Both the position numbers and the translations under genes were made by a program. Positions 10,781-64,000 of a stretch of DNA of 64,000 nucleotides are shown here, in pieces; the stretch's first letter is position 1, and each line of letters opens with the position of its first letter. The notes beneath the pieces were generated by a model, which was not told the origin of the DNA, ran no database searches, and worked only from the letters and a program-made list of their open reading frames with translations. The stretch comes from Siphonodentalium dalli (lineage: Eukaryota > Mollusca > Scaphopoda > Gadilida > Siphonodentaliidae), in assembly GCA_032622095.1 (NCBI GenBank), contig CP136065.1, forward strand, positions 20,138,134-20,202,133, given 5' to 3'.

Positions 10781-11009
10781 TCTTCAAAGGTATGGTTATT
10801 AGCCACTTACTAGTACTAGTACATGCTCATGCAACTACGCTCTTCAAAAGAGCTCACACCAACTTAATGTAATGCTCGCAGCTCGGAACCATTCACCATA
10901 ATCTATCTTGGAATTAATATATATTATGCACACACCAACAGTACAGTTGGTTACATACAACGAAATTATTTTCTGAAATCTACAACTTAGTTTGTAAATA
11001 AAACGCATC

Positions 11010-11125
11010 CGATATATATCCCTTTAAATAATTTTTGCACGCACCTGACTTGTGACGTCACTGGTAAGTACGTCATACCGGAGCGCGTGGTTGTGACGTG
11101 TTTCTGTAACGTCTGGTACTTCAGA
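11010..11125 (-). promoter_or_regulatory. ACGT/CRE-rich promoter-like module (left copy)
   Basis: On the minus strand several ACGT cores lie within about 70 bp, including a full palindromic TGACGTCA (11053-11060), the CREB/ATF consensus. A TTTAAAGGGATATATA stretch follows, which could act as a TATA-like element. The same module occurs at 24200-24300 and 25575-25690. A CAAGATGGC string (YY1-like) lies about 40 bp upstream. Promoter activity is inferred from motifs only. Confidence 0.35.
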
Positions 11126-11556
11126 GCTGTGACAGCCATCTTGGGGTAGACTACACATTTGTATTCAGTACCATGACATATGTAGTGTTTTCTAAAATCA
11201 GGCATATATGCCGCACGGACAATCATATATTACGTGAGGGATCACATATGAGGACTCTGACCTATATTCTTATAAAAAGGTAACATAGCTTTTCAGTTAT
11301 AGCGTACATTATCGCATGAAATTGATTTGTTATAAAATATAAACACAACTCCCCCCATGTATGATTTCCCTACAACCACGTGAACGCGCCTCGTTCATCA
11401 CACGAATCTCGTGTTAATATATCGTGTAAAATCTAAACAATTAACGGACTCGTGTTTACCGGTATGAGAGACTCTCGTTCGCGCGGATTTTTTATCTAGT
11501 TTGACGTCATGTATTTTGATGGAGAGCGAAATTTGGCCACATTTTTCCAGCTGGAG

Positions 11557-11671
11557 GTATAGAATGGTAATTTGTTCTATACGGCCCCTCTCTGGTGACC
11601 AATTAGGTCGAGCATTAAGGGCCGAAACCTATCACACAAACAGGCTGTATTTGATGTCTGTTATACCAGAG
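11557..11671 (-). ncRNA. Candidate structured RNA, left copy
   Basis: This is the minus-strand counterpart of 23671-23788. It has three helices in order: P1 AACAG/CTGTT (plus positions 11658-11662 with 11639-11643), P2 CGGCCC/GGGCCG (11619-11624 with 11582-11587), and P3 GTATAG/CTATAC (11577-11582 with 11557-11562). P2 encloses 31 nt containing a GACC/GGTC hairpin, and P3 is a 26-nt hairpin; both lengths equal those in the right copy. Three P2 pairs and one P3 pair differ between copies yet remain paired. An adjoining 8-bp hairpin TATACCAG/CTGGTATA lies at 11662-11701. An A-box-like string TGGTATAACAG fits TRGYNNARNNG, hinting at RNA polymerase III; that part is weak. I recognise no known RNA family. 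Confidence 0.55.
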
Positions 11672-11704
11672 TTATGCTCTTGAGAACTCTTTGCTGGTAT
11701 AGTT

Positions 11705-12300
11705 TTTTCGATCCCAACTTTTTAAATGCTATCTTTTGGACATGGTCTTAGTAAACATTTTCCAAAATTGGTTAATTATTTTTCCTCCAAAACCATCAGG
11801 ATATACTGATAGTCAAACACTGCATAACAATAAACATATACATAAACATACCACCAGAAAAGGTGTGCCATTTATAATAAGGTTTATAAAATCAAAATAT
11901 ATAATATCTGACAGCGATAAACTGTTGCTGTATGTATGCATCTATGGAAACCATTTAACTCTATCCATATATTTATGAATTTACTAACAATTTTCATCCT
12001 ATGGGCAACGATAACCCTTAACGATATTATGAGTAACTGCTCGTCCAATAAGAGACGATAACCTTCAACTATATATAGTTTGCCCAAATTATCATATCTG
12101 ACATACACGTTAACATGTTGGCATAGAACTTAACTATGAAATGGGAAAGGAGTGATATACATTATAACTGTAAGATGTGCGTCGTATACATCATACATAA
12201 ATGGGGAGGGTTACTATGCATCATAACTATGGATGGAAATGTGGTAATATACGTCATAAACATATATTTGGGAATTTGCAAACAATATCCATATCTAATA
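11705..12300. other. AT-rich segment specific to the left copy
   Basis: About 600 bp with no counterpart I can align in the right copy. It is AT-rich and has scattered short ATG-initiated ORFs (60-80 codons) with no recognisable domain. The string TTCAACTATATATAGTTTG near 12063 resembles the TTTAACTATATTTATCGGG of the repeats just downstream, so part of it may be a decayed repeat unit. I see no gene. Confidence 0.5.
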
Positions 12301-12302
12301 TA

Positions 12303-12450
12303 CTACGATGACCTTTAACTATATTTATCGGGAGCTACATGTATATATTCTCATCCAATGCACACTACGATGACCTTTAACTATATTTATCGGGAACTAC
12401 AGGTATATACTCATCCAATGCATGCTACGATGACCTTTATCTATATTTGT
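12303..12450 (+). repeat. Three ~61-bp tandem repeats
   Basis: CTACGATGACCTTTA starts at 12303, 12365 and 12425 (spacings 62 and 60). It is followed by CTATATTTATCGGGA in the first two units and by diverged sequence in the third. The right insert has the reverse complement at 23338-23432 but leaves homology after its second unit. Confidence 0.85.
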
Positions 12451-12716
12451 GTAACTATGGGTGTGTAACTTCTCTGTATACTCAATATATACATGTATAT
12501 GCCTTATACTATTATCGCACAATTAAAACTTCACATAACCGATGAATAATCAACCGTTCTACTATCCTAACTGTTTTTGTTGACTTTTAGATAGCCGTGG
12601 GTTCACGCCTTTCGGTTACCAGTCGATGCATCACGCGGGTTTTTATCTGCCTGCTCGGTGTGTCGGTGTGGTGCTTGCGGACCTTGCCAATAAGTTATCA
12701 TTCCTGACATCCCCTT

Positions 12717-12743
12717 TGGCATAATTGCCATAAACCATAAAAC
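12717..12743 (-). other. Element terminus with subterminal hairpin (left copy)
   Basis: TGGCA (12717-12721) and TGCCA (12726-12730) form a 5-bp stem with a 4-nt loop. They lie 13-14 bp from the point where satellite resumes. The same hairpin and terminal bases end the right copy at 23038-23064. A shared, sharply defined terminus in two opposite orientations against satellite is what a mobile-element end looks like. Confidence 0.5.
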
Positions 12744-23037: not shown

Positions 23038-23064
23038 GTTTTATGGTTTATGGCAATTATGCCA
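23038..23064 (+). other. Element terminus with subterminal hairpin (right copy)
   Basis: Satellite changes to TTTTATGGTTTATGGC at about 23038, with TGT shared by both sides. TGGCA (23051-23055) and TGCCA (23060-23064) form a hairpin with loop ATTA. This matches the left-copy end in sequence and spacing. Confidence 0.5.
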
Positions 23065-23337
23065 AAGGGGATGTCAGGAATGATAACTTATTGGCAAGGT
23101 CCGCAAGCACCACACCGACACACCGAGCAGGCAGATAAAAACCCGCGTGATGCATCGACTGGTAACCGGAAGGCGTGAACCCACGGCTATCTAAAAGTCA
23201 ACAAAAACAGTTAGGATAGTAGAACGGTTGATTATTCATCGGTTATGTGAAGTTTTAATTATGCGATAATAGTATAAGGCATATACATGTATATATTGAG
23301 TATACAGAGAAGTTACACACCCATAGTTACACAAATA

Positions 23338-23432
23338 TAGATAAAGGTCATCGTAGCATGCATTGGATGAGTATATATACCTGTAGTTCCCGATAAATAT
23401 AGTTAAAGGTCATCGTAGTGTGCATTGGATGA
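23338..23432 (-). repeat. Two ~60-bp repeats matching those at 12303-12450
   Basis: Reverse-complement counterparts of the left-copy repeats, seen as AAAGGTCATCGTAG followed by GCATTGGATGAG, twice. Homology to the left copy ends after the second GGATGAGAATAT, and the insert continues with unrelated AT-rich sequence. Confidence 0.8.
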
Positions 23433-23670
23433 GAATATTGAAATAGGCAATATATAGAGAAATGAAACAATTTTTTAAATGTATATATAAAATAGGTTGT
23501 CGTTTGTTATTTTTTTAGTGTTTATTTTTTGACTTATCGTACTAGCTTGATAACACAGAAGGAATCAATTGTTTGGAAAATGTTTACTAAGTCCGTTCCG
23601 AAATCATATTTTTGTACCGAAAGTTGGTCCTATAAAAAAATGTTTGGCCACAGCAGCTCATCAGGTACAC

Positions 23671-23788
23671 CTCTGGTCTATAACAGATATAAAGCAATCT
23701 GTTATTTCATATATGGTTTCGGGAGTTAAGTGCACGACCTTATGGACAGACCAGTTCTCCCGTACAGACCAAGTCCTTGGCCTGTACG
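23671..23788 (+). ncRNA. Candidate structured RNA, right copy
   Basis: Helices: P1 ATAACAGAT (23680-23688)/ATCTGTTAT (23697-23705), a perfect 9-bp stem; P2 CGGGAG (23720-23725)/CTCCCG (23757-23762) around 31 nt; P3 GTACAG (23762-23767)/CTGTAC (23782-23787), with an inner CCAAG/CTTGG stem (23769-23780). P2 and P3 abut and would stack. Compared with 11557-11671, P2 pairs 4-6 change from C-G, C-G, C-G to G-C, A-T, G-C, and one P3 pair changes from T-A to C-G, always keeping pairing. GGTTT before P2 and CGACC inside it are conserved single-stranded or loop elements. No known ribozyme or RNA class fits; no hammerhead core is present. Transcription is not shown. Confidence 0.6.
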
Positions 23789-23819
23789 CTGAAAGCCAGA
23801 AAATTGCCTGCTGATTCCT

Positions 23820-24199
23820 TCAATATCGAACTAGTATGAACTGCCAAAGGTATTTTATCACGCGCGATGGTAACAGTGCACTGTAAAATCGCGACGGTAT
23901 TATTGTCCGAACACATAATATATTTATAAACTGTGTTGATAGTTTATAGGTGGTCTAACCACAAATTTGCGCAAAGTAAAACCGTGTTTTGTACGGTAAA
24001 AACCCCATCAAAACAAAACGTAGTATAAATTAACATTAGTTTACCTGTAATCAGAAAATAAACACATGTATTAACCTCCATGTAGTTTTCCCGTTCGTCA
24101 GTACATGTGAATGATTTAAGAACACATATCCTCTATTCGCGAAGGAGCCTAAAATGCACAGCCTACCCGGGCTTAATTCCTGCCAGTATGAAGCACAGA
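23820..24199. other. Unassigned stretch of the right insert
   Basis: AT-rich sequence with no ORF of interest and no repeat that I can align elsewhere in the window. It contains short inverted strings such as ATCGCGCG-like bases near 23860-23905. I see no gene. Confidence 0.4.
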
Positions 24200-24300
24200 C
24201 GTTATGAGAAACGTCATGATTCACGAGCTCCGGTGTGACGTATATCCGCCCGTGACGTCACACGTCAGGTGCGTGTAAGACAATTTAAAGGGATACATAT
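24200..24300 (+). promoter_or_regulatory. ACGT/CRE-rich promoter-like module (first, right insert)
   Basis: Five ACGT cores occur in about 70 bp, with a palindromic TGACGTCA at 24253-24260 and a conserved CTCCGGTGTGACGT string upstream. TTTAAAGGGATACATA follows at about 24283. It is diverged from the module at 25575-25690 outside these motifs, so the motifs look preferentially kept. Promoter role is inferred. Confidence 0.35.
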
Positions 24301-24341
24301 TGAACGTGTGTCGGCCATAACAAAATAAATTCGTATTATAT

Positions 24342-26505
24342 AATCAACTGTACAGTTGGGATGTGGATATTATATAATTATTCCAAGAATAATTTGGGTG
24401 AATTATGATTTCGAGTTGCGGCCATTCCCTTAGGTTAGTTTAAGCTCTTTTAAAGAGCGTTGTTACATGAGCATGTGCATGATTGAACCAACCCATTGAG
24501 GAGTGTCTATAAATTTGTAAAAAATATATCGTAATTGGGTATCAAAATGGCTATGTACATCGCGAAATTAATTATTATACCAACGAGCGCGTTCACGTGA
24601 TGGTATGGAAATCATAAGCGGGAAGTTCCATTTATAAATAATATCTTGAAAACATATTTTGTGTAAATGTTATGTATCACGACTGTACTGTCGTGACTAA
24701 GGTTTCGATCACTTGTACTGTTAGGATGTGTATATTATATAATAATTCCAAGATTAATTTTAGTGAAATGATTCCGACTTTTGGCCATTCCCTTACGTTA
24801 GTGTAGCTCATTTAAAGAGCGTTGTTTCTTGAGATGTGCGTGATTGGCATCACACAATTAAGGAGTGTTCATAAATTTGTATGATTATCGTAAATGGGTA
24901 CCGGGTTTTCTGTGTCCACTGCGAAATTAATGATTATAACAACAGGGCGCGTTCACGTGGTGGTATGGGAATAATAAGGGGGGAGTTGTGTTTATAAATA
25001 ATATCGTGAAGGCACCATGTGTAAATATTATGCATAGCGACTTTACTGTCGTGGTTAAGGTTGTGAAAAGGGGGTGGTACTCCATTGTATGCATGAGTCC
25101 TGTACCAAGTAATTTAATTGGATGAATTTTACCGGTTACCAATCATTCTCATTACTATTAAATTTCCCTCTCCATCAAAATACATGACGTCAAACTGGAT
25201 AAAAAATCCGCGTGAACGAGAGTCTCTCATACCGGTAATCACGAGTCCGTTAATTGTTTAGATTTTACACGATATATTAACACGATATTCGTGTGATGAA
25301 CGAGGCGCGTTCACGTGGTTGTAGGGAAATCATACATGGGGGGAGTTATGTTTATATTTTATAACAAATCAATTTCATGCGATAATGTACGCTATAACTG
25401 AAGAGCTATGTTACCTTTTTATAAGAATATAGGTCAGAGTCCTCATATGTGGTCCCTCACGTAATATATGATTGTCCGTGCGGCATATATGCCTGATTTT
25501 AGAAAACACTACATATGTCATGGTACTGAATACAAATGTGTAGTCTACCCCAAGATGGCTGTCACAGCTCTGAAGTACCAGACGTTACAGAAACACGTCA
25601 CAACCACGCGCTCCGGTATGACGTACTTACCAGTGACGTCACAGGTCAGGTGCGTGCAAAAATTATTTAAAGGGATATATATCGGATGCGTTTTATTTAC
25701 AAACTAAGTTGTAGATTTCAGAAAACAATTTCGTTGCATGTAACCAACTGTACTGTTGGTGTGTGCATAATATATATTAATTCCAAGATAGATTATGGTG
25801 AATGGTTCCGAGCTGCGAGCATTACATTGAGTTGGTGTGAGCTCTCTTGAAGAGCGTTGTTGCATGGACATGTACTAGTACTAGTAAGTGGCTAATAACC
25901 ATACCTTTGAAGAGTATTCATACTATTGTAAAAAATATCGTAAATGGGTATCTAAAATGGACGTGTCCATCGCGAAATTAATGATTATAACAACGAGGCG
26001 CGTTCACGTGGTGGTAGCGAAATCCTAAGGTGGAGTTGCGTTTATATTATTATAAAAATTCAATATCATGCATCAATATATGCTATCCCCTAAAAGTCAC
26101 GGAAACAAATTCGTTTTATATAACCAACTGCACTGTTGGGGTGTGGATATTATATCTTAATTCCAAGATAGATTATGTTGAATGGTTCTGAGCTGGGCCA
26201 TACCGTTAAGTTAGTGTGAGCTCTGTTAAAGAGCGTTGCTGCTTGAATGTGTAAGTGACTCAACATAAAATTTTATAAATTATCGTAAATGGGTATCAAA
26301 AATGGACATGCCTACCGCGAAATTAGTGATTATAACAAAGAGGCGCGTTCGCGTGGTGGTAGAAAAATCCTAAGGGGTGTGATTATATCATTATAAAAAT
26401 TTTATTTCATCGCCAATGTGTTCTATAACCTAAAAGCTACGGAAACAAATTCGTGCTATATGACCAGCTGTACTGCTGGGATGTGGATGCTACATATTAA
26501 TTCCA
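24342..26505 (+). repeat. Degenerate ~350-bp tandem repeats
   Basis: Landmarks recur. GCGCGTTCACGTG starts near 24589, 24947, 25304, 25999 and 26344 (spacings about 357, 357, 694, 345). A small hairpin with a TGTACT-type loop occurs at 24345, 24677, 25035, 25744, 26124 and 26464. AATTCCAAGA and GCTCT..AGAGCGTTG recur with the same period. Each unit holds an E-box (CACGTG), except the last where it is CGCGTG. The unit containing 25304 is interrupted by the second CRE module. Units are strongly diverged, unlike the satellite around them, so this array is older. The last unit is cut at 26505 by satellite. Confidence 0.75.
25575..25690 (+). promoter_or_regulatory. ACGT/CRE-rich promoter-like module (second, right insert)
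   Basis: Identical, as far as I compared, to the minus-strand module at 11010-11125. It has TGACGTCA at 25634-25641, further ACGT cores near 25582, 25595 and 25621, a YY1-like CAAGATGGC upstream (about 25551) and TTTAAAGGGATATATA downstream (about 25667). A 79-codon open frame (25468-25707) runs through it but is probably incidental. Confidence 0.35.
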
Positions 26506-26506
26506 A

Positions 26507-29500
26507 GCAACCCTGTGTATAGTGCCTGTATTCAAGCACCCCTGTGTATAGTGCCTGTATTAAAGCAAACCTGTGTATAGTGCCTGTATTAAAGCAACCC
26601 TGTGTATAGTGCCTGTAAAGCAAACCTGTGTATAGTGCCTGTATTAAAGCCACCCTGTGTATAGTGCCTGTATTAAAGCAACCCTGTGTATAGTGCCTGT
26701 ATTAAAGCAACCCTGTGTATAGTGTCTGTATTAAAGCAAACCTGTGTATAGTGTCTGTATTAAAGCAACCCTGTGTATAGTGCCTGTATTAAAGCAACCC
26801 TGTGTATAGTGTCTGTATTAAAGCAAACCTGTGTATAGTGCCTGTATTAAAGCAACCCTGTGTATAGTGTCTGTATTAAAGCAAACCTGTGTATAGTGCC
26901 TGTATTAAAGCAAACCTGTGTATAGTGCCTGTAAAGCAAACCTGTGTATAGTGCCTGTATTAAAGCAAACCTGTGTATAGTGCCTGTATTAAAGCAACCC
27001 TGTGTATAGTGCCTGTGTATAGTGCCTGTAAAGCAACCCTGTGTATAGTGCCTGTATTAAAGCAAACCTGTGTATAGTGTCTGTATTAAAGCAAACCTGT
27101 GTATAGTGCCTGTATTAAAGCAACCCTGTGTATAGTGTCTGTATTAAAGCAAACCTGTGTATAGTGCCTGTATTAAAGCAACCCTGTGTATAGTGTCTGT
27201 ATTAAAGCAAACCTGTGTATAGTGCCTGTATTAAAGCAAACCTGTGTATAGTGCCTGTAAAGCAAACCTGTGTATAGTGCCTGTATTAAAGCAAACCTGT
27301 GTATAGTGCCTGTATTAAAGCAACCCTGTGTATAGTGCCTGTGTATAGTGCCTGTAAAGCAAACCTGTGTATAGTGCCTGTGTATAGTGCCTGTATTAAA
27401 GCAAACCTGTGTATAGTGCCTGTATTAAAGCAAACCTGCGTATAGTGTCTGTGTATAGTGCCGGTATTAAAGCAAACCTGTGTATAGTGCCTGTATTAAA
27501 GCAAACCTGTGTATAGTGTCTGTGTATAGTGCCTGTATTAAAGCAAACCTGTGTATAGTGCCTGTAAAGCAAACCTGTGTATAGTGCCTGTAAAGCAAAC
27601 CTGTGTATAGTGCCTGTATTAAAGCAAACCTGAGTATAGTGTCTGTGTATAGTGCCTGTAAAGCAACCCTGTGTATAGTGCCTGTATTAAAGCAAACCTG
27701 TGTATAGTGCCTGTATTAAAGCAACCCTGTGTATAGTGTCTGTGTATAGTGCCTGTAAAGCAACCCTGTGTATAGTGCCTGTATTAAAGCACCCCTGTGT
27801 ATAGTGCCTGTATTAAAGCAAACCTGTGTATAGTGCCTGTAAAGCAACCCTGTGTATAGTGTCTGTATTAAAGCACCCCTGTGTATAGTGCCTGTATTAA
27901 AGCAAACCTGTGTATAGTGCCTGTAAAGCAAACCTGTGTATAGTGCCTGTATTAAAGCAAACCTGTGTATAGTGCCTGTATTAAAGCAAACCTGTGTATA
28001 GTGCCTGTATTAAAGCAAACCTGTGTATAGTGTCTGTGTATAGTGCCTGTAAAGCAACCCTGTGTATAGTGCCTGTATTAAAGCAAACCTGTGTATAGTG
28101 CCTGTATTAAAGCAAACCTGTGTATAGTGCCTGTGTATAGTGCCTGTAAAGCAAACCTGAGTATAGTGCCTGTAAAGCAAACCTGTGTATAGTGCCTGTA
28201 TTAAAGCAAACCTGAGTATAATGCCTGTATTAAAGCAAACCTGTGTATAGTGCCTGTATTAAAGCAACCCTGTGTATAGTGCCTGTATTAAAGCACCCCT
28301 GTGTATAGTGTCTGTATTAAAGCACCCCTGTGTATAGTGTCTGTGTATAGTGCCTGTAAAGCAACCCTGTGTATAGTGCCTGTATTAAAGCACCCCTGTG
28401 TATAGTGCCTGTATTAAAGCAAACCTGTGTATAGTGCCTGTATTAAAGCAAACCTGTGTATAGTGCCTGTATTAAAGCACCCCTGTGTATAGTGTCTGTG
28501 TATAGTGCCTGTAAAGCAACCCTGTGTATAGTGCCTGTATTAAAGCAAACCTGTGTATAGTGCCTGTATTAAAGCAAACCTGTGTATAGTGCCTGTATTA
28601 AAGCACCCCTGTGTATAGTGTCTGTATTAAAGCACCCCTGTGTATAGTGTCTGTGTATAGTGCCTGTAAAGCAACCCTGTGTATAGTGCCTGTATTAAAG
28701 CACCCCTGTGTATAGTGCCTGTATTAAAGCAAACCTGTGTATAGTGCCTGTATTAAAGCAAACCTGTGTATAGTGCCTGTATTAAAGCACCCCTGTGTAT
28801 AGTGTCTGTATTAAAGCACCCCTGTGTATAGTGTCTGTGTATAGTGCCTGTAAAGCAACCCTGTGTATAGTGCCTGTATTAAAGCACCCCTGTGTATAGT
28901 GCCTGTATTAAAGCAACCCTGTGTATAGTGCCTGTATTAAAGCAACCCTGTGTATAGTGCCTGTATTAAAGCAAACCTGTGTATAGTGTCTGTGTATAGT
29001 GCCTGTATTAAAGCAACCCTGTGTATAGTGCCTGTATTAAAGCACCCCTGTGTATAGTGCCTGTATTAAAGCAACCCTGTGTATAGTGCCTGTAAAGCAA
29101 ACCTGTGTATAGTGCCTGTAAAGCAAACCTGTGTATAGTGCCTGTATTAAAGCAACCCTGTGTATAGTGCCTGTATTAAAGCAAACCTGAGTATAGTGCC
29201 TGTATTAAAGCAAACCTGTGTATAGTGCCTGTATTAAAGCACCCCTGTGTATAGTGCCTGTATTAAAGCAACCCTGTGTATAGTGCCTGTATTAAAGCAA
29301 ACCTGTGTATAGTGCCTGTATTAAAGCAAACCTGTGTATAGTGCCTGTATTAAAGCAAACCTGTGTATAGTGTCTGTGTATAGTGCCTGTAAAGCAACCC
29401 TGTGTATAGTGCCTGTATTAAAGCAAACCTGTGTATAGTGTCTGTATTAAAGCAAACCTGTGTATAGTGCCTGTATTAAAGCCACCATGTGTATAGTGCC

Positions 29501-53909: not shown

Positions 53910-53990
53910 TGTAACACTGTAGGTACCAAGTTAAACCAGAAGTTACTCACAAAAAAACGCCTACACAAGAAATTATTTGATTATATGTAA
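53910..53990 (+). pseudogene. 3'-terminal fragment of the PLE reverse transcriptase
   Basis: Encodes the last 26 residues of the RT (from CNTVGTKLNQ to KKLFDYM) and its TAA stop at 53988-53990. Everything upstream is replaced by satellite. The junction shares TGT, so the break may lie 1-3 bp either way. It is a remnant of the upstream element copy and cannot function as a gene. Confidence 0.95.
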
Positions 53991-54041
53991 CTGTACCCCC
54001 TCTGCACGAAATATAATACTACACATTATATTCTATAAGAA

Positions 54042-54055
54042 CCCCCCCCCCCCCC
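54042..54055 (+). repeat. Poly-C tract, 14 C
   Basis: The matching tract in the right repeat (60714-60724) has 11 C. This is the only length difference I found between the repeats, and is consistent with slippage or sequencing error. Confidence 0.9.
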
Positions 54056-54185
54056 TATCATAGAAATTTTATCACGATATTATCCACTGTGTTCAGTACA
54101 GAACATATTTTTCAGTGCCCCCACCCCAACTCATTTTTATATATAGTATTATTGAAACCATATACTATACCTTTATCCAGATAAC

Positions 54186-54611
54186 ATGGATTGGGAAAGC
54201 GAGGTCCTCGCATACTTGACCAGCAATTGCAAAACTACAGCAGTATATTTATCTACTGAAGAACTGTGTAACTTGAATCTACAGGATATTCTCTCCTCTA
54301 AAAGCTATATAGAGGTTTTCGACCCATTCAACAATGTTTTCAAGCTTAAGCGAATACCTAACTACAGCTCATTTATTCATATGTATACTGGTATCAGATT
54401 TAGTACCATAGACTTTCGACTCATTAGCCAGTTTCATATTTTTATCTACAAAGTCACCAGCAACATTGTCATAAAAATCACATGCCCTTATGATCGTATA
54501 TGTAAACGATTCCATGTAAACATGTACCCAGAATGTAAAAAACGAATTCTATACAAATTGTACCATTACTACCTGTTCACTGACATAGATTTTTCCACTC
54601 CCATGGACTAA
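54186..54611 (+). CDS. 141-aa protein of unknown function, PLE ORF2 (left copy)
   Basis: I do not recognise this protein. It starts at the first ATG after the RT stop region, about 195 nt downstream. It is rich in aromatic and hydrophobic residues, with no clear signal peptide or membrane helix. Near the C-terminus C100, C106, H110 and C117 give a C-x5-C-x3-H-x6-C pattern that could bind zinc; basic residues surround it (KRFH, KKR). It contains no GIY-YIG motif, so it does not supply the missing endonuclease. An identical copy lies at 60855-61280. That identity reflects recent duplication and is no evidence of selection. Position just after RT makes it either an accessory element protein or a chance ORF. 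Confidence 0.4.
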   Translation: MDWESEVLAYLTSNCKTTAVYLSTEELCNLNLQDILSSKSYIEVFDPFNNVFKLKRIPNYSSFIHMYTGIRFSTIDFRLISQFHIFIYKVTSNIVIKITCPYDRICKRFHVNMYPECKKRILYKLYHYYLFTDIDFSTPMD

Positions 54612-54707
54612 AACATTTTTGGCAGATCACCCACTTTAACTATCTATTTACCCCTTAAACAACACCATTATCGCCTTTAATATAAACCATATGGCCGCTT
54701 AGGTCAC

Positions 54708-54865
54708 GTACATTAACTTCAAATACACCCCCTGTTCAAATGAAATGTAAAAGCAATATTTTTACTTTTATATTTCCTTAGGCTATGTGCATTAACTTCA
54801 AATGCACCCCCTGTTGAAATGGAAATATAAAAACAATATTTTTATTTTTATATTTCTTTTCTCGA
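54708..54865 (+). repeat. Two 79-bp tandem repeats downstream of ORF2
   Basis: GTACATTAACTTCAAATACA at 54708 and GTGCATTAACTTCAAATGCA at 54787 begin two similar units. Each ends in a T-rich stretch (TTTTTAC or TTTTTAT, then TTTATATTTC). The pair is repeated at 61377-61534. The T-rich tails could serve in RNA 3' end formation, but no AATAAA is present in the units. Confidence 0.8.
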
Positions 54866-54869
54866 CTAA

Positions 54870-57800
54870 AGAGTTTTATAAAAAACCACTCAGTTGGCCT
54901 CCCGTTTTTATCGGCGCATGCGCGACCTCAAGCCATTGCATTTAGCAGACGCTCAATCGTAACCTTCACAAAATCTCGATGATTTCTCTCCTAATTTATA
55001 TAATTCTCACGTGAGTACACTGTGTATTTACTGGTTGTCCATATGCATTTATACTTATAGCACATCTAGGCACATTAATTTCAATTTATCAGATGGTAAT
55101 TTGTCTAATTTTCCTCTTCTAAAATCACCCCGTTTGAAATACTTGTCTGCACAACTTTTGATGACATCATCACACTTTTACTGCCAAACTCAACTAAATT
55201 TCTATGTCCCCATGTGAACTTCACCTTGTATTTTACAATAATCTGTAATCATTATTAGTTCTGTAATGACATTTTCACACTTGTATCAACATGTTGTAGT
55301 GCATATTTTGTTTGCGCTTGTAAATAATACACAATTATTCACTCATGCTAAAATATAATCATCTAAATTGAAATCTGTACTCCATTATTTTTCCCCCCAT
55401 TTTATGAGTGCGTGGTGCATAGCGGTTATTTAGCTGGATCGGCTTAACCACATGTTAAGTGACACTACCTGGATAGTGGGCTTCTTGTGTTAAAAAGTGT
55501 CGAAAAGCGGTGGTCTGTTGTTTAAACACTCCATCACCAGGTACATAACTGACGACGATCCCAGTGAAATTTAGCATTTTACTTCAGACTTACACCTACA
55601 CTTACATTCCACAACTGCTTACTCATGTACATAACTATAAATTTCAAAATTAACCCTTTCGAAAACTCGCGGCCTATGCTTACGTTCCTAATTTCTAAAT
55701 TTGTAACACCTAACTATGTACCACGCTCCCATGTTTTACTGAAACTACCGGTATGGGACAATCATGAAACTTAAGAATATTTTAATACTCTACGTATAAC
55801 TAGTTCATTTATGATAGTGCGTGATTCTACGATACTGGTACGCATACTCTGTCATATGTATACCTATATTTTCCAAATTTCAAAACACCAGGCATACCTC
55901 TATTATGCTCCTGTTTTTAATTTTACTGACTATGGAATTGTCCAAGTGGCGCTTCGGAATGTGTACCTAGATAATGATCGCCTTTGTCCATGTTACCGAA
56001 GACAGGTTTACCCTTGTATTCTGTGGTGTTCCCAGCCCCCCAGGATCTCTATATTTTACAACATATGTTGTGTAGGCAGGCATTGCAAATACAGGCAAAC
56101 TTCAGTTTCGGCTTTTAACATTTGACGCATTTTGTTCCGCCCTGATTTGTTTTAGTTCGTTACAAATTACCTACTTTTCAGACAGCCTATTATTCATTTT
56201 GTAATTATTTAGTTGTGGTGTGCTTGCAGACTCTATCTGATTTTTTGATAAGTAACATAGATACTTGTGACAGTGTATGAATTGGCATTTCTCACGGCTC
56301 CCTATATTTTTTTTCATGTACAGATCACAGACTCTCGGCATAACTGACATCGGCATAACTGACCACGGACTCCCGGCAAGGTACATATCGTACTGAGAAA
56401 TTCCTTAACATTACTGTTCGCATTTACTAAACTTAACTGTTCACTAATAAATATTCTAACATATCGTACGGCTAACATATACGCACGTACCTATGCATAT
56501 GTAACTTTGGTTTCAACGGAAATCCATTAATGTATAGATCTTACCTCTACGCATTACGTGCTATGATTTATAATCATAAATAGATTATATTATATTACTC
56601 TTAACCAAACTGGTACATTACACACCATCCTATTTAATTACATTTATGATTCTTACTGTCTACATTGCGCCCCATCAGTACAGATAGGGTGTACAATTAA
56701 ATTACTTACGGTTACTTTAACCGTTACAAACTACTTCTAATGCTACTTTGCACTATGTTTGCAAACTTCACTGTAACAGCCTAGTACCCTTTTATTAATT
56801 ATGGCTATATAGGTGGTAATTTACCTATATTTATGGTATTATAACTCTAATCATCATCAATCCTTACACAACAGTACAGGTGTGTTAGTCCTAGATAACT
56901 GGTGTTGTACATATTTCCATGTGTTGGCCTTTAGGTACATTGTGTGCTCATCGACGGATTATACTGGTTTATGATATTGTATTACATATAACAATACTAA
57001 CCCAATTTACATCTCTATGAATAACAAATTCAATTTTGCCATCCCCATACATACTAAAAATACCTTTTTATATTGCCATTTACATGGTACATATCATTAC
57101 CTAACTTACAATGGTACCTTCCTATATTTAAGCGCCGGGTACTATCACCCCCAAGCACCTCGGTCTTAACCTACATGATCAATATCATGTATACGACACA
57201 ATTGCTACATCTGTAGCTTTAATGTATATACGTTATCGTTATATTTTTCTTCGTTACCCCTCACCTTATTATATGCAGCCAACTGTATATGACCCACCCC
57301 CATTTACATTTTCCCTTTATATTAAATTTAACACAATATCATCTATATCTATGATATGATACTTATCGGTTTTTAAAATTACCACCAACGATATAATAAT
57401 AACCATGAAAACCAAAATGACAAAAATCACCTTGACTCATACCCCGCTATATACATACATATATCATTTTTGCATATGTGACTCACCGGGGTGGTCACAT
57501 CAGTTTATAAAACCTATTTTGAGTATACACCCTATAATTATTTAACCCCCCAACCTACAATACCGGACTAATTTTAAAATAATTGCACCCTGACCTATAC
57601 CTCTATCTTTAATTTTTCTATATTTACCACACTTAAAATACTCTATGTTCTATACATTGGAACCTCAGACAGTATCACCTCAACGAGTTCATATATGTAT
57701 ACCACATTCAGATTTTCGGCATCATATATCACCTTGCACCTGATATATATTTAATTAACTCCACTCCGCACCTTTGTATATACGTTTCTTTTACCTTACA

Positions 57801-58170
57801 TTTTTCAATTACATTATTATCAAGTCTAACCCCCTTTTTATTACTTATGGGTATTTAGCCAAATAACAACATGGCGTTGCCCATACGTGATCGTTATTGT
57901 ATATATTTACGGTTCCACTCGTTTTATTTTCTTGTTAATATTTAAGATTATTTTTATTCACATCGTTCTAAATTCGAACCATAGGCATTTTCTGACATCT
58001 TATATGCCTATCCCATGTGCGATTAGTATCGACATGGCTATTTTACTACAGGTGGTTTCAACACCCCCCACTCATATCCAATATATATGTTATATAATAA
58101 CGTTACATATTCCAATGTATACGCTAAGATAACGTCATATCATCTCACATATACACCTTATGAACACCGA
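54870..58170. other. Noncoding interior of the PLE upstream of RT
   Basis: 3.3 kb of AT-rich DNA with short unrelated ORFs only (55011-55217, 55811-56125, 57887-58132 plus; 56171-56386 minus). None has a recognisable domain. Clear hairpins are CTTAAC/GTTAAG (55443-55459), GACACT/AGTGTC enclosing CACTA/TAGTG (55461-55501), ATGATT/AATCAT (about 56571-56585) and TACATGAT/ATCATGTA with a 4-nt loop (57172-57191). By position it should contain promoter, 5' UTR and possibly an intron of the RT transcript. The part up to 57331 is repeated downstream. Confidence 0.5.
57172..57191. other. Perfect 8-bp hairpin in the PLE repeat
   Basis: TACATGAT and ATCATGTA with loop CAAT. The second copy is at 63841-63860. 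Function unknown; could be a structural element of the element RNA. Confidence 0.5.
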
Positions 58171-58189
58171 TATTAATCGATATTATACA

Positions 58190-58199
58190 TTTTTTCAGC
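58190..58199 (+). promoter_or_regulatory. Possible 3' splice site just before the RT start codon
   Basis: TTTTTTCAG ends at 58198, two bases before the ATG, and a TATTAAT string about 25 nt upstream could serve as branch point. Introns are documented in PLEs, which is unusual for retroelements. A spliced leader or upstream exon joined here would put the AUG next to the exon start. An in-frame TGA at 58161 shows that the unspliced frame is closed upstream. No donor is assigned. Confidence 0.35.
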
Positions 58200-60662
58200 A
58201 TGTCCGATGCCAAGCTTTTTAAATATGATGAGCTTTGCGCTTCGGCATATAAAGAACACATTATGTCTTTTGAGACAAAATTCTATGACCTCTGTAATCA
58301 TGTCGATCACCCCTATGGTAGGGCTCTAATTGATCTGACTCTTTCACAGAAACATGACATCATCACATATTATGATGAATTATGCCCAAAATATACTGAT
58401 TCTTGCTTCAATTATATTAACGATGTTACTCAGTCGGAACTTGACGATAACTTTTCTGAAGTGAATGTCAGAATCTTTGAATTAAACAGACTCCTTGAGG
58501 ACTTTTATGACCGAACCCAGGAAATGAAAGACTTTCGAAGTGTCAGTTTATCACAGAATCGACATACACCCCTACCCACTTCGCAGTACAGTGAATTGAA
58601 TGCATTACATAAACTTTCTCAGCTCAGTAAAGATATGTTACACCATAATATTGGTTACCGTACAGAGCTTCGGACTTTGGACCGTTACCGATTTACACTT
58701 AATAAAGAAGATATAACCGACCGTCAGAAGGTTTTTAACTTTATACCCTGGCATTTACCTGACAACCTTATTGATACTCTGAGTAAGGGAGGTAACTTTA
58801 TCCCTACTCCACTATGGAACCGCAATAAACAAACTGCAAACCTTAAACAAATGGTTTATGATAGCCTTGAACGTATCAATAACCGTACAATTCGTCACAT
58901 ATCATCACAATCCTTGTGTCGTACACCTTCATCTAACGTACTGTTATACACACATGTTAACCATCCTGACTTACCACAAACCTTGATTAATTCTACGCTT
59001 GACAGCATCAATAGTGTCAACAATCATTGTAATTTGCACCATGCTTCACATCGACTATATTTCAAAAATATCTCCGAGTTTGAAACCAAGACAATTGATT
59101 TCTATGCTAACCACCCTGGCATTATTATCTCACCAAGTGATAAAAATCTTGGCATCTCTATTAATACCACTGCCTGGTACGCCCATGAATATCGTCGGCA
59201 ACTCGATGATACTACAACCTATGCAAGGCATCCATATGATACCTTACCTGATTTAATTACCACAGGTGTCTCTAACATGCATTTAATTGCTTTTCAATAT
59301 AAAGATTCTACCATAGATAAGGAATTTCTTTTGAAGCTTATTAAAGTCAAGGCTTCAGATATTATTGTGCCCTCTCTCAATATTGTACCTAAGGTACATA
59401 AACTTAAGCAGTTTCCAACCCCTAACCTTGAAATGACCCTTAAGGCGCGGCCAATTTTGAACGCACATTCTGCTATTTCGACGACAGCGTCACATATATT
59501 AGGCGATATGCTTGATGAATATCTTAAGCAGTTGCGTTACTACTTTGATTGTCATAATTTACAATATACCATATGTAAAGATTCTTTGCATGCTATTCAT
59601 GAATTCCAAACCATACATGTTGAACCTAAATTACTATCACAATATTGGTTCATTTCATTTGATTTCAGTGCATTGTATACATCTATTAGAAATACTGATC
59701 TGTATCTTGCATTTGATTTTATCAAAGAAATCCTTAATATTGATCAAGACCATTATAATTTCATGGTCTCATTATTTGAGTTTATCCAGAGTACTTCATA
59801 CTTTCATGTTGGTTTTAAACACCTCTTCCGGCAACAAAACGGTTTGAGCATGGGCTCTTATTTTAGCTCGCAAGCCGCTAATGTCATTTTATTAAGATGT
59901 GAATACTATATGTATCAGAATATTGAGTTCAGTAAATACATACATATATTTCTTCGATATATTGATGACGGCATCATGTTTATTCAAATGGATTATAATA
60001 ACCTTTGTGTGTTCTTGAATCAGCTCCGAACATACTACCCCTTGCATATAGATTTGGAAATATCTGTCAGCAAGTTTTATGTAAACTTTCTGGATATTAC
60101 ATTCAGTATTAACCATATGTTATGGTTTCAAAACAGCTTGCACATTGGTTTGTACCAAAAGCCATTCAACACATATTCTTATACACATTTCACCAGTGAT
60201 CATCCTATTAGTGTTTTCAAAGGTATTGTGGCCACTGAATGTTTTAGATATTACCGCCATGCCTCATGTAAAGAGGACTATATATATTACACCAACCTTT
60301 TCCTTATCAGACTTTTGAAATGTGGTTACCCTGAACAGTTTTTAATGAAGCATATCTTACCTTATGATACGGTTATGCTTAAGGATATGGCTAAATCAGT
60401 CGCTACCGATCAACAGGGTACTTCTCATGATACCTCTGAATTGCCCACTAGTACAAGTGTGGCCGACATGCAAAATAATAATGATCTCCCTACAGTTTAT
60501 GTGCCTTTGCACTTTTCCAAGACTATACGCAATAACTTTGTTGCCAAGCAACTCATTCGTCACCATAATAAAGTTAGATTTTGTAACACTGTAGGTACCA
60601 AGTTAAACCAGAAGTTACTCACAAAAAAACGCCTACACAAGAAATTATTTGATTATATGTAA
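58200..60662 (+). CDS. Penelope-like element reverse transcriptase, no visible GIY-YIG endonuclease
   Basis: An 820-residue RNA-dependent DNA polymerase that would copy the element RNA into DNA. Residues 1-300 have no domain I recognise. The RT core runs from about 310 to 690: DKNLG (314-318), IVPKVHK (395-401) and ARPIL (416-420), the PLE PKIHK and RPI signatures; motif A FDFSALYTSI with D488; motif B NGLSMGS (547-553); motif C YIDD (587-590) with D589 and D590; then FLDITF (630-635) and GLYQKPFNTYSY (650-661), the PLE FLD and YRKPT signatures. All three catalytic aspartates are present. After about 770 a basic tail follows, with no GIY-YIG motif at either end, whereas canonical Penelope proteins carry one C-terminally. 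It may therefore belong to endonuclease-lacking PLEs such as the Athena/Coprina group; clade is not certain. The first ATG follows a TTTTTTCAG. No stops or frameshifts occur, so it may be active. Confidence 0.9.
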   Translation: MSDAKLFKYDELCASAYKEHIMSFETKFYDLCNHVDHPYGRALIDLTLSQKHDIITYYDELCPKYTDSCFNYINDVTQSELDDNFSEVNVRIFELNRLLEDFYDRTQEMKDFRSVSLSQNRHTPLPTSQYSELNALHKLSQLSKDMLHHNIGYRTELRTLDRYRFTLNKEDITDRQKVFNFIPWHLPDNLIDTLSKGGNFIPTPLWNRNKQTANLKQMVYDSLERINNRTIRHISSQSLCRTPSSNVLLYTHVNHPDLPQTLINSTLDSINSVNNHCNLHHASHRLYFKNISEFETKTIDFYANHPGIIISPSDKNLGISINTTAWYAHEYRRQLDDTTTYARHPYDTLPDLITTGVSNMHLIAFQYKDSTIDKEFLLKLIKVKASDIIVPSLNIVPKVHKLKQFPTPNLEMTLKARPILNAHSAISTTASHILGDMLDEYLKQLRYYFDCHNLQYTICKDSLHAIHEFQTIHVEPKLLSQYWFISFDFSALYTSIRNTDLYLAFDFIKEILNIDQDHYNFMVSLFEFIQSTSYFHVGFKHLFRQQNGLSMGSYFSSQAANVILLRCEYYMYQNIEFSKYIHIFLRYIDDGIMFIQMDYNNLCVFLNQLRTYYPLHIDLEISVSKFYVNFLDITFSINHMLWFQNSLHIGLYQKPFNTYSYTHFTSDHPISVFKGIVATECFRYYRHASCKEDYIYYTNLFLIRLLKCGYPEQFLMKHILPYDTVMLKDMAKSVATDQQGTSHDTSELPTSTSVADMQNNNDLPTVYVPLHFSKTIRNNFVAKQLIRHHNKVRFCNTVGTKLNQKLLTKKRLHKKLFDYM

Positions 60663-60713
60663 CTGTACCCCCTCTGCACGAAATATAATACTACACATTA
60701 TATTCTATAAGAA

Positions 60714-60724
60714 CCCCCCCCCCC
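60714..60724 (+). repeat. Poly-C tract, 11 C
   Basis: Counterpart of the 14-C tract at 54042-54055; lies about 50 nt after the RT stop. Confidence 0.9.
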
Positions 60725-60854
60725 TATCATAGAAATTTTATCACGATATTATCCACTGTGTTCAGTACAGAACATATTTTTCAGTGCCCCCACCCCAACT
60801 CATTTTTATATATAGTATTATTGAAACCATATACTATACCTTTATCCAGATAAC

Positions 60855-61280
60855 ATGGATTGGGAAAGCGAGGTCCTCGCATACTTGACCAGCAATTGCA
60901 AAACTACAGCAGTATATTTATCTACTGAAGAACTGTGTAACTTGAATCTACAGGATATTCTCTCCTCTAAAAGCTATATAGAGGTTTTCGACCCATTCAA
61001 CAATGTTTTCAAGCTTAAGCGAATACCTAACTACAGCTCATTTATTCATATGTATACTGGTATCAGATTTAGTACCATAGACTTTCGACTCATTAGCCAG
61101 TTTCATATTTTTATCTACAAAGTCACCAGCAACATTGTCATAAAAATCACATGCCCTTATGATCGTATATGTAAACGATTCCATGTAAACATGTACCCAG
61201 AATGTAAAAAACGAATTCTATACAAATTGTACCATTACTACCTGTTCACTGACATAGATTTTTCCACTCCCATGGACTAA
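60855..61280 (+). CDS. 141-aa protein of unknown function, PLE ORF2 (right copy)
   Basis: Identical in translation to 54186-54611. Here it follows an intact RT gene by 192 nt on the same strand, so it could be read from the same transcript as a second cistron or be a separate unit. The C-x5-C-x3-H-x6-C pattern (residues 100-117) and the basic C-terminal region suggest nucleic-acid binding only loosely. No homologue comes to mind, and a chance ORF is not excluded. Confidence 0.4.
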   Translation: MDWESEVLAYLTSNCKTTAVYLSTEELCNLNLQDILSSKSYIEVFDPFNNVFKLKRIPNYSSFIHMYTGIRFSTIDFRLISQFHIFIYKVTSNIVIKITCPYDRICKRFHVNMYPECKKRILYKLYHYYLFTDIDFSTPMD

Positions 61281-61376
61281 AACATTTTTGGCAGATCACC
61301 CACTTTAACTATCTATTTACCCCTTAAACAACACCATTATCGCCTTTAATATAAACCATATGGCCGCTTAGGTCAC

Positions 61377-61534
61377 GTACATTAACTTCAAATACACCCC
61401 CTGTTCAAATGAAATGTAAAAGCAATATTTTTACTTTTATATTTCCTTAGGCTATGTGCATTAACTTCAAATGCACCCCCTGTTGAAATGGAAATATAAA
61501 AACAATATTTTTATTTTTATATTTCTTTTCTCGA
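61377..61534 (+). repeat. Two 79-bp tandem repeats (right copy)
   Basis: Same pair as 54708-54865, offset 6669. Being present in both element copies, it predates the tandem arrangement. Confidence 0.8.
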
Positions 61535-64000
61535 CTAAAGAGTTTTATAAAAAACCACTCAGTTGGCCTCCCGTTTTTATCGGCGCATGCGCGACCTCAA
61601 GCCATTGCATTTAGCAGACGCTCAATCGTAACCTTCACAAAATCTCGATGATTTCTCTCCTAATTTATATAATTCTCACGTGAGTACACTGTGTATTTAC
61701 TGGTTGTCCATATGCATTTATACTTATAGCACATCTAGGCACATTAATTTCAATTTATCAGATGGTAATTTGTCTAATTTTCCTCTTCTAAAATCACCCC
61801 GTTTGAAATACTTGTCTGCACAACTTTTGATGACATCATCACACTTTTACTGCCAAACTCAACTAAATTTCTATGTCCCCATGTGAACTTCACCTTGTAT
61901 TTTACAATAATCTGTAATCATTATTAGTTCTGTAATGACATTTTCACACTTGTATCAACATGTTGTAGTGCATATTTTGTTTGCGCTTGTAAATAATACA
62001 CAATTATTCACTCATGCTAAAATATAATCATCTAAATTGAAATCTGTACTCCATTATTTTTCCCCCCATTTTATGAGTGCGTGGTGCATAGCGGTTATTT
62101 AGCTGGATCGGCTTAACCACATGTTAAGTGACACTACCTGGATAGTGGGCTTCTTGTGTTAAAAAGTGTCGAAAAGCGGTGGTCTGTTGTTTAAACACTC
62201 CATCACCAGGTACATAACTGACGACGATCCCAGTGAAATTTAGCATTTTACTTCAGACTTACACCTACACTTACATTCCACAACTGCTTACTCATGTACA
62301 TAACTATAAATTTCAAAATTAACCCTTTCGAAAACTCGCGGCCTATGCTTACGTTCCTAATTTCTAAATTTGTAACACCTAACTATGTACCACGCTCCCA
62401 TGTTTTACTGAAACTACCGGTATGGGACAATCATGAAACTTAAGAATATTTTAATACTCTACGTATAACTAGTTCATTTATGATAGTGCGTGATTCTACG
62501 ATACTGGTACGCATACTCTGTCATATGTATACCTATATTTTCCAAATTTCAAAACACCAGGCATACCTCTATTATGCTCCTGTTTTTAATTTTACTGACT
62601 ATGGAATTGTCCAAGTGGCGCTTCGGAATGTGTACCTAGATAATGATCGCCTTTGTCCATGTTACCGAAGACAGGTTTACCCTTGTATTCTGTGGTGTTC
62701 CCAGCCCCCCAGGATCTCTATATTTTACAACATATGTTGTGTAGGCAGGCATTGCAAATACAGGCAAACTTCAGTTTCGGCTTTTAACATTTGACGCATT
62801 TTGTTCCGCCCTGATTTGTTTTAGTTCGTTACAAATTACCTACTTTTCAGACAGCCTATTATTCATTTTGTAATTATTTAGTTGTGGTGTGCTTGCAGAC
62901 TCTATCTGATTTTTTGATAAGTAACATAGATACTTGTGACAGTGTATGAATTGGCATTTCTCACGGCTCCCTATATTTTTTTTCATGTACAGATCACAGA
63001 CTCTCGGCATAACTGACATCGGCATAACTGACCACGGACTCCCGGCAAGGTACATATCGTACTGAGAAATTCCTTAACATTACTGTTCGCATTTACTAAA
63101 CTTAACTGTTCACTAATAAATATTCTAACATATCGTACGGCTAACATATACGCACGTACCTATGCATATGTAACTTTGGTTTCAACGGAAATCCATTAAT
63201 GTATAGATCTTACCTCTACGCATTACGTGCTATGATTTATAATCATAAATAGATTATATTATATTACTCTTAACCAAACTGGTACATTACACACCATCCT
63301 ATTTAATTACATTTATGATTCTTACTGTCTACATTGCGCCCCATCAGTACAGATAGGGTGTACAATTAAATTACTTACGGTTACTTTAACCGTTACAAAC
63401 TACTTCTAATGCTACTTTGCACTATGTTTGCAAACTTCACTGTAACAGCCTAGTACCCTTTTATTAATTATGGCTATATAGGTGGTAATTTACCTATATT
63501 TATGGTATTATAACTCTAATCATCATCAATCCTTACACAACAGTACAGGTGTGTTAGTCCTAGATAACTGGTGTTGTACATATTTCCATGTGTTGGCCTT
63601 TAGGTACATTGTGTGCTCATCGACGGATTATACTGGTTTATGATATTGTATTACATATAACAATACTAACCCAATTTACATCTCTATGAATAACAAATTC
63701 AATTTTGCCATCCCCATACATACTAAAAATACCTTTTTATATTGCCATTTACATGGTACATATCATTACCTAACTTACAATGGTACCTTCCTATATTTAA
63801 GCGCCGGGTACTATCACCCCCAAGCACCTCGGTCTTAACCTACATGATCAATATCATGTATACGACACAATTGCTACATCTGTAGCTTTAATGTATATAC
63901 GTTATCGTTATATTTTTCTTCGTTACCCCTCACCTTATTATATGCAGCCAACTGTATATGACCCACCCCCATTTACATTTTCCCTTTATATTAAATTTAA

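Follow-up and report, generated by a model that had tools for sequence, protein, structure and literature searches.

We identified a structured RNA domain, real and previously uncatalogued, that forms the internal core of a non-coding element of 3.2-5 kb with one fixed end; its fold is absent from Rfam, and the kind of element to which it belongs is already known. Our preferred reading, held with somewhat better than even confidence, is that the domain forms the core of a retroelement that is non-coding, non-autonomous and probably mobilised by a Penelope-like enzyme, and whose transcript would be antisense to the strand on which the domain was originally reported.

The window (the whole 64,000-nt stretch of DNA that was analysed) consists for the most part of a 29-nt satellite, in which copies A and B of the domain are located in two inverted islands. 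The sequences and coordinates of both copies, 23671-23788 and 11557-11671, were verified in the window, and the initial annotation, which had described them as two diverged homologues, was borne out, with 63.5% identity over ~265 bp (E 4e-15). The outer modules of the two islands are near-identical (98.8% and 97.9%), whereas the middle containing the RNA domain has diverged. Element copy A is truncated at ~26507, the end opposite its fixed end, and its host sequence is the satellite. The features of the two copies are as follows, with RNA sense given as predicted.

23039-26507, minus strand: element copy A, with the fixed end TTTTATGG at 23039 (predicted RNA 3′ end)
23572-23591, plus strand: conserved core 20-mer TTTGGAAAATGTTTACTAAG, copy A
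23671-23762, minus strand (probable RNA sense): pseudoknot domain, copy A
23673-23679/23748-23754, minus strand: helix Pa, copy A
23682-23688/23697-23703, minus strand: hairpin PhA, copy A
23720-23725/23757-23762, minus strand: helix P2, copy A
23763-23788, minus strand: P2-abutting hairpin of copy A, unbroken over 12 bp on the minus strand
10781-12742, plus strand: element copy B, with the fixed end at 12742 and truncation at 10781, in the 29-nt satellite
11557-11671, plus strand of the window (probable RNA sense): the same pseudoknot domain, copy B
11747-11766, minus strand: core 20-mer TTTGGAAAATGTTTACTAAG, copy B

The satellite (TATTAAAGCAACCCTGTGTATAGTGCCTG) accounts for ~50 kb within window positions 1-53912, where it is broken up by the two inverted element copies and also by fragments that are repeated, near 26.5 and at 31.6-32.1 kb. 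The window belongs to a eukaryotic genome of 2.23 Gb in nine contigs, in which the genome-wide counts given below were taken.

Fixed ends, tandem arrays and truncated copies

The core 20-mer TTTGGAAAATGTTTACTAAG, with NCC behind it, has 666 exact copies genome-wide and none in the reversed control. Written on the reported strand, the fixed end of the element is TTTTATGG in A and B and TTTGTTGTAACAATATAGAGATCC in a third subfamily, C. The A/B fixed end TTTTATGGTTTATGGCAATTATGCC occurs in 275 exact copies in the genome, and the base before it is G in nearly all of them, usually as part of TG. Whole units stand head-to-tail at many loci, with GTATATG joined directly to TTTTATGG at the junction.

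Many array-ending and single copies are shortened at the end opposite the fixed end. Among ~21 independent copies selected by the 20-mer alone, 16 stop 35-200 bp beyond the start of the 20-mer, mostly within the structured region, and several of the truncated copies end right at GGTTTCGG. In a tally made by hand of terminal copies bearing the fixed end, in which absence of the exact 20-mer may also reflect mutation, ~20 of ~31 do not contain the exact core within some 975 bp; ~11 reach it, and in ~8 of these the intact domain is missing from the following 190 bp. The truncation counts therefore correspond to a ~six-fold rise in hazard within the domain. Two subfamily C copies cut at GGTTTCGG (L079, ~1650-1675 in element orientation, and C9:197247499-197247563) have differing flanks and continue, directly after the cut, into part of their own fixed end in inverted orientation (ATCTCTATATTGTTACAACAA). 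Two-sided priming could produce this arrangement, and the enzyme of an anole Penelope-like element (PLE) extended both strands in vitro (PMC11167929).

At locus L062, a truncated copy is flanked by a 17-bp target duplication with one mismatch, which points to target-primed reverse transcription. No target duplication was found at L063 and L077, and insertions in the satellite are ambiguous, since in tandem-repeat targets a deletion is indistinguishable from a duplication. By raw count, about half or more of 20 loci examined have a minisatellite directly beside an element junction. At L064:1570-1940, a 19-nt minisatellite that begins within the core of the element is similar to the GGTACAC...TATAACAG sequence of that core; the element copy runs directly into the repeat, which was possibly generated during insertion.

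Head-to-tail arrays, together with a single fixed end that has a T run and, 11 nt further in, a palindrome, also fit a non-autonomous rolling-circle element of the Helitron/Helentron type, which would start at the fixed end, yield head-to-tail units from a circle and be stopped early by hairpins that the core forms in single-stranded DNA. The genome holds intact Helitron ORFs, and tandem repeats are frequent in Helentron derivatives (PMC4067079, PMC8268682). We nevertheless regard this origin as unlikely: the L062 copy has its 17-bp duplication, the T run is preceded by G in nearly all copies and not by a TT target, the listed ends are without a Helitron gene nearby, and the wobble asymmetry described below argues for RNA. 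The subterminal inverted repeat is not above chance either, 36% of shuffles being as good, and on this point and the missing TT target, membership among Helentrons or HINEs was rejected. Separately, we recorded 151 Helitron_like_N matches genome-wide, many of them in long open frames, in classes of ~1600 and ~2500-2860 aa.

Pseudoknot, compensatory changes and RNA strand

The helices named in the initial annotation were recovered: both copies contain AACAG/CTGTT, the six-pair helix P2, in which three pairs are doubly substituted, and the abutting hairpin, in which one pair is compensated. The proposed helix plan had, however, overlooked the helix CTGGT/ACCAG, which lies inside the former "31-nt loop" and crosses P2 in A, B and C; the fold is therefore a pseudoknot. 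The core of this helix (Pa) is invariant, and its extension lies at opposite ends in A versus B and C. Between A and B, Pa shows four apparently compensated pairs, which were not counted because they represent a 2-nt slip of the invariant core. The length enclosed by P2, described as exactly 31 nt, has this value in A and B but is 29 nt in L080-L088, 37 nt in L068 and 34 nt in subfamily C.

P2 is the strongest helix of the domain. The initial annotation held four compensated pairs between two sequences to be improbable by chance, which was an overstatement, since 5.7% of shuffles in a two-copy column-shuffle null contain a helix with a minimum length of 5 bp that carries at least three double compensations; two copies alone are therefore weak evidence of covariation. 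A genome-wide motif search in which only the outer CGG and CCG of P2 were fixed identified subfamily C, whose domain was assembled from overlapping pieces of different copies and whose P2 is again compensated, as CGGTTC/GAACCG. The three subfamilies thus carry P2 as CGGGAG/CTCCCG, CGGCCC/GGGCCG and CGGTTC/GAACCG, and the three-subfamily column-shuffle null for P2 gave 2/4000. The 5′ hairpin abutting P2 has its predicted closing bases in only two subfamily C copies. The blocks CGACCT, GGTTTCGG and the 20-mer are unchanged, while flanking identity falls to ~63%. Judged from these comparisons, selection on the secondary structure of the domain is supported. Searches of Rfam with the window and the element units, at gathering and permissive thresholds, gave nothing convincing, in agreement with the original description of the RNA as undescribed, and no related loci were found in prokaryote genomes and phages.

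The strand was assessed from the shared helices, in which 92 cells are Watson-Crick and ten are not. Seven of these ten are A-C on the reported strand, equivalent to G-U on the minus one; the other three are mismatches, with no G-T among the ten. In this tally, the choice of helix ends tilts somewhat to the minus strand. The abutting hairpin is unbroken on the minus strand, with 12 bp in copy A and 11 in copy B. Because of this hairpin and the wobble ratio of 7 to 0, the RNA is more probably the minus strand, opposite to the reported one; shuffle z-scores were mixed, with A favouring the minus strand and B similar on both. The earlier claim that RNA folding is selected gained from the third subfamily, but the strand on which it was read was probably the wrong one.

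If the domain were functionless, the truncations would reflect passive stalling of the reverse transcriptase (RT), and the compensation would combine chance with founder amplification of a few subfamilies. This possibility draws on the fact that there are only three independent versions, the hundreds of near-identical copies within each subfamily adding no independent evidence. In view of the three-way shuffle result and the blocks that stayed unchanged beside diverged flanks, we consider it quite improbable.

On the minus strand, the helices follow the order P1, P2, hairpin, P1′, hairpin, P2′, which is the crossing-helix order of HDV ribozymes, and copy L068 terminates at P1 within about two bases. 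Both features would suit a self-cleaving ribozyme of HDV topology whose cut would define the 5′ terminus of the mobile RNA, and HDV-like ribozymes are contained in R2 (PMC3774820). The domain differs from such ribozymes in that the UUAUA-like joining strand before P2′ is without the catalytic cytosine, P1 begins with C, and exact 5′ ends are missing at the site, a search for subfamily A copies that stop at the predicted cleavage site with a non-T base next having given 0 matches. With the Rfam match also absent, self-cleavage of this type appears very improbable.

Other candidates were rejected. The initially suggested SINE-like Pol III RNA failed on an A-box-like string that occurs in copy B alone, contains one mismatch and is not followed by a B box on its strand, and on the position of the domain inside a 3-5 kb element; a tRNA search with bacterial settings found none. 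A hammerhead, which the initial annotation had also discounted, and with it a retrozyme, was dismissed: the minus strand of A, C and D carries a CUGAUGA-like string that is without a GAAA partner or stems, the window and units have no Rfam match, and CTGANGA...GAAA is absent from the 3208-bp unit. Although the 20-mer plus a TATA-like string resembled the PSE of an snRNA-type promoter, the upstream regions of host U6 and U2, inspected by eye, are without the 20-mer. The U6 snRNA genes themselves form large arrays of ~1.36-kb period on both strands at C9:133539523-133836326, with separate copies on C3 and C1.

Candidate reverse-transcriptase element and proposed mechanism

A tandem element at the right end of the window carries an ORF for a candidate RT.

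53910-64000, plus strand: tandem element bearing the candidate RT, in which 53910-57331 is repeated as 60582-64000 with 99.9% identity
55936-56066, plus strand: stretch in common with the subfamily C fixed end, 131 bp, 88.6% identity, E 7e-41
58200-60662, plus strand: 820-aa ORF, candidate RT with Penelope-like motifs read by eye
62605-62735, plus strand: second copy of the 131-bp C-end stretch

The element has a period of 6672, its 5′ copy is truncated at the satellite edge, and the ORF is open throughout. Read by eye, the 820-aa product has the motifs PKVHK...RPIL, FDFSALYTSI, QQNGLSMGSYFSSQAAN, RYIDD and FLDITF, which we take to be the Penelope-like RT series. No match to it was found in Pfam, NCBIfam, PADLOC or PDB, and its AlphaFold model has a pLDDT of 31. 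Scanning 56001-64000 for simple motifs revealed no GIY-YIG pattern; members of the PLEs without the endonuclease exist. By the orientation of the shared 131 bp, sense corresponds to the minus strand of the core, as a minus-strand transcript predicts. The end of A and B, the two reported copies, differs from that of C and was not found on the candidate RT element. From these sequence features, the ORF product is a candidate relative of the mobilising enzyme.

In the Penelope-mediated mechanism that we propose, the transcript would end at the fixed end, TTTTATGG in A/B and TTTGTTGTAACAATATAGAGATCC in C, and its core would present a 5′ hairpin abutting the pseudoknot, in which P2 is crossed by Pa with PhA in between. 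A Penelope-like RT would prime on a nicked target ending in TG, and cDNA synthesis would start from the fixed end, the 3′ end of the transcript, with copying frequently halting at the pseudoknot. Tandem units may then arise through end-to-end template jumping or from multimeric RNA templates. The domain would serve either in RNP recognition or as a plain roadblock to the RT; most likely, the pseudoknot is kept for recognition by the RT complex, as the R2Tg pseudoknot would suggest by analogy, or for RNA stability. A further-reaching idea, modelled on telomerase and bacterial DRT systems, is that a Penelope-like (telomerase-related) RT recognises a dedicated pseudoknotted non-coding RNA and inserts, perhaps even extends, tandem repeats. 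The L064 copy, with its adjoining core-like minisatellite, bears on this idea, which we consider rather improbable.

Relation to known elements

Tandem and partial-tandem copies are known from PLEs (PMC11167929). The present elements share these with PLEs, along with 5′ truncation and the lack of a poly-A tail, and the ORF of the candidate partner has Penelope-like RT motifs by eye. In contrast to PLEs, the A/B/C elements are non-coding and no hammerhead was found in them, nor was a GIY-YIG endonuclease recognised beside the candidate RT ORF. A literature search on PLEs did not return any description of a pseudoknot of this kind.

PLEs have also been proposed as mobilisers of metazoan non-LTR retrozymes (PMC7229834), which are likewise non-autonomous, non-coding and arranged head-to-tail, with a structured RNA. 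Retrozyme units, however, measure ~150-450 bp and carry a type I hammerhead, whereas the units here are 3.2-5 kb and are without an Rfam ribozyme. A small pseudoknot in the template RNA is shared with the R2Tg 3′ UTR, where it is bound by the RT to start target-primed reverse transcription (PMC12222951), but here a distance of ~1-1.5 kb separates the pseudoknot from the fixed end, and the elements are not inserted in 28S rDNA.

Collectively, we place the element with a known kind of retroelement, as a new member or relative that is non-autonomous. It provides an example of a mobile element that is frequently inserted in minisatellites and forms multi-kilobase self-tandem arrays. To our knowledge, little is known about how PLE-type RTs choose their RNA, and the covarying pseudoknot, together with the C end common to the candidate RT element, offers a concrete RNA for an in-vitro insertion assay.
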